NCBI GenBank assembly: GCA_022823945.1
Contig: JAJEBK010000014.1
Location: 62,001 to 126,000 of the forward strand
Source: Anaerolineae bacterium
Lineage (GTDB): Bacteria > Chloroflexota > Anaerolineae > Aggregatilineales > Phototrophicaceae
Reading direction: 5' to 3'
Length of the DNA: 64,000 nt
In this document: positions 38,010 to 39,833 of the stretch, piece by piece
How the letters are laid out: every line of letters begins with the position of its first letter
Position numbering within the stretch: position 1 is the first letter of the stretch
Made by a program: the position numbers and the translations under genes
The notes under the pieces: model-generated
The model's database searches: none
What the model was told of the DNA's origin: nothing
The model's input: only the letters and a program-made list of their open reading frames with translations

Positions 38010-39430
38010 CTAGCAGCTGCCAGAAAGCACCCGGCTGTGATAGCGGCTGATGAAGCCGGCCTGCCCTTCAAATTCCACTTGATACCAATGCCCGTCCACA
38101 GCGAAGACCGGCACCTCTGAATTCATCCAGACCAGTCCGATCCTCTGCCCATTGGGCGCGGCGCGCAGGTAAAGCGTGGTTTCAAGCTTGATTTGGCAGA
38201 TTGGCGACGACGGCGGTGACACGGGTGGCGATACGGCTGGCGACTCAGGCTGCGGCGCGGAAACCGAAGAAAAGCCTCCGCCACTGACCAATGCCACGGT
38301 GCCCTCACCCGGGATGTCCACGCAGGTGTCGCTGCCCAGCATATAGTGCGTCAGCCAATAAATCGGATGCGGCGTGATCGACGAATCCTTGAACATGACG
38401 CCGCCGCCAGTTTGCCCGATGAAGCAGACGCGCGTGCCCGCCGGGACTGTGCCCCAGACATTGGTCGTCGACAAAATGCCTTGTTCGATGATGTCCATGT
38501 GGCCCACCATCGAGTTCGTCAGCGCCTGGTTGTGCAGGGCACACATGCCGAACGCCGGGCAAGTGACAACAACATTGTGGTCGTGATATGGTTCGATCGG
38601 CTGAGTGGGCGCTTCGCTGGCGGAAGTCGCGCCGCTATCATCACTGCCGCTATCATCACCGCCACTACTGCCACGATCACCGCCTGCTCGAGCCGGGGCG
38701 CGCGCTGCAGACATCGCGATGCCCGACGCGTGCGGCGTATCGGTAGCGTTTATCAGCGAACATCCACTCACCACCACTTCACCCGGCAGGCAGGAATAGG
38801 AATCCACATCCCAGTTGTATTCTCTGCCAGATTCCAAGCCGCTGATGGTAATGGACAGCTTGTCGGTAAGTTCGCCGCCACTCGCGTAATGCACCATATA
38901 CCAAATTTTGCCGCCTTCAGGATCCTTCGCGGCGGGCCATGAAATGGTTATGGAGCCGCTGGTATCTACTGGCGCTGCCGGCGGTATTGGCGTTGGTGGA
39001 TCATCCTGGGCTGGCGGATCATCCTGAGGCGGCGGATCTTGCACTGACGTAGGGCTAGTCGCTGGGGATTCGCCAGAAGGACCTTGGTTAGTTGTCGCCG
39101 CGCAGCTTGGCAAGCCCATCTGCGCATTTGTATAGCTCGAAGCCTCACTGGCTGTGCAGCTGTAAACATGAATAAGCCAACTGTATGACACGCCCACAGT
39201 CAGCCCGGTAACTTTGAAGCTGGTCGACTGCGTTTTATATTCTAGCCAACTATAGTCTTCTTGCCGAATAGATAGGCCATACCAAACTTGCAGCCCGGCT
39301 TCGCTGGGGTTTACTGCGCTCCAGGTCAGCGTCAGTTCCCCCCCCCCTGCGCGCTCAAGGGAATTAGCCCTGAAAAGACTATAAGCATTAGGGAAAAAAG
39401 TAGCGCCGTGCGTATCTGCATTCTTCTCAT
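38010..39430 (-). CDS. Secreted FN3 / DVWG-domain / SH3b protein, out of frame at a G10 tract
   Basis: A perfect export start lies at 39430: GGGAGG ribosome site, then MRRMQIRTALLFSLMLIVFS and GLIPLSAQ. It enters a run of ten Gs and stops at TGA. The rest (from ~39337) continues in another frame as ELTLTWSAVNPSEAG, two FN3 units, a Pro/Asp linker (PPPQDDPPAQDDPP), a Ser/Gly/Asp-rich stretch, the ~90-residue domain with TNVWG, RVCFIGQTGG, SDTCVDI, GTVALV, and one SH3b domain ending SGSC. Eight or eleven Gs would join signal peptide and body (~470 aa). The long frame alone (to 39476) has no export signal. Confidence 0.78.
39338..39347 (-). repeat. G10 homopolymer after the signal peptide
   Basis: Ten consecutive Gs on the coding strand, between codons for SAQ and the FN3 body. 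With ten Gs translation from 39430 ends at once in AAC-TGA; with 8 or 11 Gs it reads into ELTLTW. It is the longest such run I noticed inside a coding region of the window. Confidence 0.8.
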
Positions 39431-39508
39431 TTTGTCTGCCTCCCGTGGTTCGGCTGTATAAACGGGCAACTACCATGCGCAGTCACAGCGCAGGCACACA
39501 ATTTGCAC

Positions 39509-39548
39509 ACTATAGTCTACATTTTTCTTTCAGTCAATAGTCTGTAGA
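39509..39548 (-). promoter_or_regulatory. Strong promoter with overlapping inverted repeat, upstream of G10 surface gene
   Basis: Minus strand: TTGACT (39537-39532), 17-bp spacer, TATAGT (39514-39509), each 5/6 to consensus, about 72 nt before the ATG at 39430. TCTACA (39516-39521) and TGTAGA (39543-39548) form an inverted repeat spanning the -35. ATAGTCT also occurs as a direct repeat (39512 and 39537). It is a plausible operator for the divergent XRE protein. Confidence 0.6.
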
Positions 39549-39578
39549 GAATTGACGCCGTAGTCGGACAATTGTGCT

Positions 39579-39833
39579 ATGCGTCCATTCGAAAGCATCT
39601 TTGGCGAAGTCGTGCGCAAGCGGCGGCGGGAGCTCGGTTTGTCGCAGGAGGAATTGGGTTTTCGCTCGGGGTTGCATCGCACCTATATCAGCGAAATCGA
39701 GCGCGGCTTGAAGTCCCCCTCGCTGCGGGCGATGATCGGCATTGCAAAAGCGCTGGATACACGGGTATCCGCGCTGATGATGCAGACGGAGAAGATTTCG
39801 ATGATGCAGACGCCGGCGATAAGCAATAACTAG
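39579..39833 (+). CDS. XRE-family HTH transcriptional regulator
   Basis: 84 aa, a single Cro/CI-type helix-turn-helix: VRKRRRELGLSQEELGFRSGLHRTYISEIERGLKSPSLRAM. No sensor or dimerisation domain follows. It is divergent from the G10 surface-protein gene (148-bp shared spacer containing the promoter and inverted repeat), so local control of that gene is likely but inferred. No clear ribosome site precedes the ATG; it could be leaderless. Confidence 0.85.
   Translation: MRPFESIFGEVVRKRRRELGLSQEELGFRSGLHRTYISEIERGLKSPSLRAMIGIAKALDTRVSALMMQTEKISMMQTPAISNN

Follow-up and report, generated by a model that had tools for sequence, protein, structure and literature searches.

A poly-G tract between signal peptide and body of a Chloroflexota FN3 protein is a candidate slipped-strand switch with counterparts across the genus

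We describe a tract of ten Gs (G10) lying exactly between the signal peptide and the body of a predicted surface protein in a 64,000-nt stretch of an Anaerolineae genome (the window), and we consider it highly probable that this tract is a slipped-strand contingency switch and one of several such loci in the genome and in the genus. According to this model, replication slippage would change the number of Gs in the tract. Tracts of 8, 11 or 14 Gs would bring signal peptide and FN3-FN3-DVWG-SH3 body into one frame and allow export of the protein (ON), whereas at other lengths translation would end soon past the tract (OFF), the assembled genome representing an OFF state. Similar switches on secreted proteins and membrane glycosyltransferases would result in differing surface combinations among the cells of one population, and an adjoining XRE-type regulator may add transcriptional control. 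We infer slippage within the population, surface exposure of the protein and a role towards host, phages or grazers. A candidate phase-variation switch had been proposed here by a first-pass annotation of the DNA, and, as an inference, the proposal is supported by a tract length that is not fixed and by selection on the body. Both an assembly error and a dead gene are unlikely, because separate assemblies carry homologous tracts in five gene families and because the part behind the tract is under selection.

Results

A G10 tract separates a signal peptide from an open FN3-DVWG-SH3 body

By sequence inspection, the ATG at position 39430 on the minus strand is followed by a signal peptide of 28 residues which runs into G10, the last base of the CAG closing the signal peptide doubling as the first G of the tract (Table 1). 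The product of the G10 state, MRRMQIRTALLFSLMLIVFSGLIPLSAQGGGN, comprises 32 codons and ends as GGGN-stop. The body, starting with LTLTWSAVNPSEAG... and ending at the stop codon 38012-38010, is read in a frame different from that of the signal peptide; the two are in frame at 8 or 11 Gs and out of frame at 10. The body is built of FN3-1, FN3-2, linkers rich in Ser, Gly and Pro, a DVWG block and SH3_3; Pfam assigns two stretches to fn3 (E 2e-8) and detects SH3_3 at E 1e-6. The first-pass annotation had described a ribosome site and signal peptide leading into ten Gs and a stop, with the body in frame at 8 or 11 Gs, between intact FN3 and metH neighbours. Sequence and translation bear out the former, the 441 open codons with their fn3 and SH3_3 domains agree with the latter, and the neighbours encode a 2375-aa protein with 24 fn3 stretches and a MetH with five matching domains.

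Table 1. Features of the candidate switch gene and its surroundings, in window positions
Feature	Position	Strand	Basis
SH3_3 domain	38043..38177	-	Pfam, residues 434-478 of P0001
Surface-protein body, 441 codons + stop	38010..39335	-	Pfam, alignment A1, dN/dS
DVWG block, HDHNVVVT...TTNVWGTVPAGTRVCF...DTCVDIPG	38280..38585	-	alignment A1; dN/dS 0.16 vs G003, the strongest constraint within the body
FN3-2 domain, best PF00041 stretch	38796..38963	-	Pfam, residues 172-227 of P0001
Stop codon TGA after 32 codons, used with G10 (OFF)	39332..39334	-	translation
G10 homopolymer, proposed switch	39338..39347	-	sequence, frame count, G15 at the equivalent junction in G003
Signal-peptide coding part, MRRMQIRTALLFSLMLIVFSGLIPLSAQ	39347..39430	-	sequence, translation; intact in tractless orthologues G005/G001/G014
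Ribosome-binding site GGGAGG	39439..39444	-	sequence; 8 nt 5' of ATG 39430
Promoter/operator-like region with CTACAGACTATTGACTGAA and GTAGACTATAGTGTGC	39500..39560	.	alignment A2, stretches of columns identical in 6/6 sequences
Divergent XRE-type HTH regulator gene, 84 aa	39579..39833	+	Pfam HTH_3 E 3e-15

The window gene belongs to an FN3-DVWG-SH3 family of the genus characterised by signal peptide, FN3, DVWG and SH3 (alignment A1), in which the DVWG block is among the best conserved parts. We drew the boundaries of this block, and the domain split used for dN/dS, ourselves; no Pfam family covers the block up to E 10. The strongly conserved block recurs, among the matches listed, in many proteins of the genus, likewise without a Pfam family.

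An uninterrupted open reading frame of 488 codons, missed by the first-pass annotation, starts at ATG 39476 and passes through G10. Used as an alternative start, this ATG would yield a 488-aa protein without signal peptide at ten Gs. The open frame is present, but no ribosome site is seen 5' of ATG 39476, the N-terminus of its product is the signal-peptide region read in another frame, and ribosome site and conserved start go with ATG 39430, GGGAGG being found 5' of the ATG in the aligned orthologues of G003 and G022 as well. As the body frame of G003 has stops in the region concerned, the 488-aa frame was rejected as a real gene, and we regard the alternative start as the least probable of all explanations considered here.

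Tract length and position vary among relatives of the window gene

The window protein was searched in 61 genomes (three-digit handles such as G003 denote genomes, in distinction to tracts such as G10 or C12) and matches somewhere in 40 of them, mostly with its C-terminal part among the matches listed. Near-full-length matches are found in G003 (73% identity), G022 (68%), G001 (46%) and G014 (43%), and the match in G005 comes in two pieces (56% and 49%). At the equivalent junction G003 carries G15, also out of frame (SAQDGGGGG-stop). In the G022 orthologue the junction is tractless, and a separate G11 lies within the signal peptide, in frame, at a place where the source genome has GGG; in the orthologues of G005, G001 and G014 the signal peptide is intact and a tract is absent. 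A G10 fixed in all relatives, named by the first-pass annotation as a sign of a decayed gene, is hence not what this comparison gives. At the exact window junction no ON form was seen, both tract-bearing species (the source and G003) being OFF as assembled, and no within-species variants of P0001 were found among the best 8000 scored candidates of the protein database, its cluster having one member.

Upstream, the first codons of the XRE gene were found next to the orthologues in G003, G022, G005 and G014, and intergenic motifs are common to all six aligned sequences, suggesting a regulatory role of positions 39500..39560. Regulator and shared motifs (39500-39833) are thus kept beside orthologues of the window gene.

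The part behind the tract is under purifying selection

Between the source and G003, the dN/dS of the whole body is 0.64, a value that on its own would suggest relaxed selection. Domain by domain, the same comparison gives 0.16 for DVWG, 0.33 for SH3 and 0.22 for the DVWG-to-SH3 stretch (191 codons including the linker; Fisher p about 1e-6 from counts and site numbers rounded by us), while FN3-1 (0.93) and FN3-2 (1.73) are near or above neutrality, the latter value being uncertain and resting on few synonymous changes, since FN3-2 of the source compared to G022 gives 0.31. Behind the tract, the frame stays free of stops over 441 codons in the source and 559 in G003; a neutral simulation over 441 codons results in 4.8 stops per lineage and in none in 0.6% of the runs. 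The DVWG-to-SH3 part is under purifying selection, and the domain-split values together with the simulation imply that the sequence downstream of the frameshift is maintained, whereas the FN3 modules evolve rapidly. We read this as a possible exposed, diversifying FN3 tip on a conserved base.

These data bear on the explanation that the gene is on its way out and the tract a frameshift that has become fixed. Such decay would agree with the OFF state of both species carrying the tract here, with the near-neutral FN3 values and with the ratio for the body as a whole, but it is contradicted by the open codons behind the tract, by the low C-terminal dN/dS between two species that are both OFF and by the simulation (P 0.006 per lineage), so that we consider it very improbable.

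Long tracts in the source genome are enriched at gene starts and signal peptides

Taken by itself, the G10 of the window is only mildly improbable: one such tract is observed against 0.14 expected in 64,000 nt, and at least one occurs in 9 of 100 window shuffles. As the tract itself is not very rare, the case rests on its position and on the relatives. In the source genome, 52 overlapping 10-mers are observed compared to approximately 8 expected if the window rate holds (our scaling); counted by hand, the 52 10-mers correspond to 18 tracts of 10 to 18 bases, the longest being G18. Reading all 18, we could assign seven to genes, 11 being without gene assignment.

Applying a scripted criterion, 8 of the 18 tracts mark the start of a signal-peptide-like gene, which holds for 304 of 3000 points drawn at random from the window (p 2e-4); the signal peptides were called by a home-made hydrophobicity rule, which also counts two glycosyltransferases of the source genome and L053, in our view an upstream repeat. 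In G030, whose 55 tracts of at least 12 were all examined, as 39 loci, the figure is 11 of 39 (p 0.0014 against the source-window control; G030's own control is 77/919). As 10 of the 18 source tracts lie elsewhere by this criterion and 11 are without a gene, the genus also builds up G tracts in places other than switches. At four loci (L040, L045, L051, L053), G11-G13 follows CTGTC (CTCGTC in L053) with GAGGG a few bases on; judged by these shared flanks, they are probably a tract-carrying repeat family outside genes.

Homologous tracts in other species differ in length and frame

The tract-bearing genes are predicted to encode surface, secreted or surface-modifying proteins, as indicated by signal peptides and by FN3, Pmp and PMT-like families, and tracts at homologous places were found in other species. 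A vanadium-haloperoxidase-like gene (L052; VCPO_2nd, DUF6851) has C12 directly 3' of the signal peptide in the source and C9 at the signal-peptide junction in G004, both OFF, and is tractless and in frame in G003, G027, G014 and G018; dN/dS behind the tract is 0.09-0.15 in five pairs, some with tractless species. An FN3 paralogue carries C12 5' of the h-region in the source (L041, ON) and C11 in G006 and G015 (both OFF). The Pmp-FN3 gene L054, encoding FN3 and Chlam_PMP repeats, has C18 directly 3' of its ATG (OFF), its counterpart in G023 has C14 after the h-region (ON), and in a further gene for a Chlam_PMP protein (L048) C15 lies two bases 5' of the ATG. L048 and L054 show that Chlam_PMP repeat proteins, one of them with FN3, occur in Chloroflexota, both adjoining long C tracts.

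Two PMT-like membrane glycosyltransferases, GT1 and GT2, carry mid-gene tracts. In one loop of GT1, we found C11 in the source (L043, OFF), C14 in G003, C16 in G007 and C17 in G030, the latter followed by C13 and located in the second copy of a tandem pair, whose closer copy is open and tractless; in a second loop, there are C10 in G025, C11 in G012 and C8 in G005. All seven tract-bearing GT1 genes are OFF (chance 0.06 by our arithmetic), which may hint at selection for OFF. GT1 loci are tractless with open frames in G013, G024, G009, G002 and G022, and tractless with one in-frame TAG in G018; the G001 gene, split at a contig end, was dropped. Behind the tract, dN/dS of GT1 is 0.20-0.32 in six pairs, some with tractless species. 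The mutS search gave a lower-scoring hit, which we read as possibly MutS2-like, no more than ~5 kb from the tract-bearing GT1 gene in G000:C9, G003:C35, G007:C61, G012:C26, G025:C27 and G005:C164 (genome:contig). For GT2, tracts share one loop in five species, i.e. G18 in the source (L050, ON), G9 in G024 (ON), G15 in G028 (OFF), G11 in G026 (OFF) and G32 in G030 (OFF); among the 12 loci examined, those in G003, G025, G004, G019, G029 and G017 are tractless and that of G002 is cut by a contig end. Since several species have more than one GT2 copy, this comparison establishes homology, not strict orthology. In any one of these gene families many members of the genus are tractless.

Among 32 assigned tract genes, 8 are in frame (ON) and 24 OFF, which is compatible with 1/3 (p 0.35); these genes were picked by us, are no census and are non-independent, 10 of the 32 coming from G030 and L123/L159 being near-duplicates. 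Seven loci with ambiguous start or frame (L107, L125, L134, L138, L145, L146, L158) were left out of the tally, as were L048 with its tract 5' of the ATG and the second tract of L169, which lies in a neighbouring copy and would be in frame. The loci share several features with contingency loci: a frame-changing repeat in coding sequence, length variation at a conserved place between species, each represented by one genome, a gene kept by selection and predicted surface-related targets.

The main rival of a heritable switch is recoding, in which slippage of RNA polymerase or ribosome gives a constant low output of full-length exported protein in all cells, irrespective of tract length. It would also account for selection on an out-of-frame body, and poly-A transcriptional slippage is reported for Buchnera in an excerpt of PMC2831843. 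However, tract lengths at homologous sites range from 8 to 32 without a preferred frame, and the proportion in frame is what a free draw predicts. The fixed frame at a conserved slippery site that characterises programmed frameshifting was not found among the 32 genes, 8 being in and 24 out of frame, nor was a conserved slippery site found in the window gene, the tract being absent in three of six orthologues and moved in one. We therefore judge recoding to be unlikely.

Finally, the length of the homopolymer might be an error of assembly or sequencing, such as poly-G from two-colour Illumina chemistry, the true tract being a fixed G8 or G11. Several contigs of G018, G027 and G001 do end in poly-G, and exact tract lengths in short-read MAGs are uncertain. 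Against this, the window tract is located inside a 152-kb contig and, in five gene families, separately assembled species have tracts at shared places, the coding strand showing poly-G in some cases and poly-C in others, which makes a length error slightly less probable still than gene decay. The slipped-strand switch remains the reading we prefer.

Long tracts are commoner inside the genus than outside and include a recurrent 5' module

Across 34 genomes of the genus, tracts of at least 12 have a median of 11 per genome (0-55), whereas 27 genomes that represent other genera within the family and order have a median of 0 (p 2e-7; raw tract counts, uncorrected for base composition). Inside the genus, G004 and G033 have zero such tracts. 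Outside the genus, G047 (14) and G060 (11) are rich in them. Poly-G is also found at contig ends (L094 in G001, L104 in G026, L180 in G014 and many in G018 and G027), possibly as a two-colour sequencing artefact or due to breaks at heterogeneous tracts; contig-end tracts were excluded as evidence.

We rejected a loss of mismatch repair as an explanation for the long tracts, since all 61 genomes match the mutS1 model. In 58 of the 61 the match is above the family cut-off, giving no sign of mismatch-repair loss as far as mutS1 is concerned; in G005, G037 and G056 it is below the cut-off and in pieces.

Four loci of G030 (L123, L124, L128, L142) share a short start (MNAGKRNI-like or MITL), C12-C17, a similar n-region (GTAATATCGCGTAACAATTCCGC..., VISRNNS or VISSSNT) and a signal peptide, and then continue into different bodies. 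The n-region occurs without the cassette start in L125 and L134, and VISLNN after C9 in G020 (L119) and VISSDN after C11 in G012 (L183) are both in frame. From its sequence, this poly-C 5' module looks like a portable switch cassette placed before different bodies.

Discussion

Phase variation by slippage has mostly been described from pathogens, and Pmp genes of Chlamydia carry poly-G tracts. Comparable to these, the Chlam_PMP repeats of L048 and L054 lie beside C15 and C18, although the phylum is unrelated and L054 adds FN3. The nearest precedent for the window gene, on the parts of the literature consulted, is pilC1/pilC2 of Neisseria, in which poly-G in the region encoding the signal peptide switches translation of PilC by slipped-strand mispairing (PMC13190605, excerpt). 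The tract lies within the signal-peptide region there and at the junction of signal peptide and body here, protein and phylum are unrelated, and switching was measured in Neisseria whereas we infer it for the window gene. More widely, according to an excerpt of PMC5953494, intragenic tracts of G9-G21 are located on adhesins and glycosyltransferases of Neisseria (pilC G9-20, lgtA G9-20), the mean number of poly-G tracts per genome being given as 15.4 and 18.2 for the two pathogenic species and 19.4 for N. lactamica; these numbers are only roughly comparable with the 18 tracts of at least 10 in the source genome, because the cut-offs differ. This phasome, including lgtA and the pilin glycosyltransferases, resembles ours in having tracts on adhesins and glycosyltransferases, while genes and phylum differ. 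In the neisserial opa genes a repeat in the leader-peptide part likewise switches Opa (PMC3960869, in part), the repeat being the pentamer CTCTT there and a homopolymer here.

Homopolymeric tracts near 5' ends reversibly inactivate genes, and in the same survey of 99 genomes poly-A/T is biased to 5' ends while poly-G/C is unbiased (Orsi et al. 2010, PMC2831843, in the portion consulted). The window G10 agrees with these 5' inactivating tracts, albeit as a poly-G for which that survey saw no 5' bias; the string 'Chloroflex' is absent from its main text. In PMC6329791, phase variation occurs solely in the reference list. The per-phylum table of a frameshift survey lists Chloroflexi once, with 10, 14 and 2265 in the first columns (PMC3711429, partial text), and the frame-transition survey behind it may contain unnamed Chloroflexi cases. 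Screening titles and beginnings of abstracts, mainly in the open literature, we found no report of phase variation in Chloroflexota; the first-pass annotation had called such switching little described in this phylum. The same screen of papers on phase variation in sponge symbionts gave none on Chloroflexota. The mechanism is already known, and for its presence in Chloroflexota we found no report.

A sponge origin of the named MAGs of this genus is likely, judged by their names: the COS and CAR of COS4_bin_42 and CAR2_bin_3 agree with Coscinoderma and Carteriospongia, sponges from which the study PMC8163846 took samples. An excerpt of that study reports FN3-domain genes to be enriched in sponge MAGs and especially abundant in Actinobacteriota and Chloroflexota.

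We consider it moderately probable that this uncultured Chloroflexota genus, probably comprising sponge symbionts, possesses a genus-wide phasome of independent G/C switches on FN3 and Pmp-like proteins and on glycosyltransferases, including a portable 5' cassette. If true, tract-rich members such as G030 with its 55 tracts of at least 12 could rival pathogenic Neisseria, and a non-pathogen inside an animal symbiosis would generate cell-to-cell surface diversity. Genes of these MAGs that look truncated or signal-less can reflect a single state of the tract in an otherwise intact gene, and existing read sets allow the switch reading to be tested. Genus-wide switches on adhesin-like FN3 proteins, Pmp-like proteins and glycosyltransferases would point to surface bet-hedging in an apparent symbiosis, directed against recognition by the host, phages or grazers.
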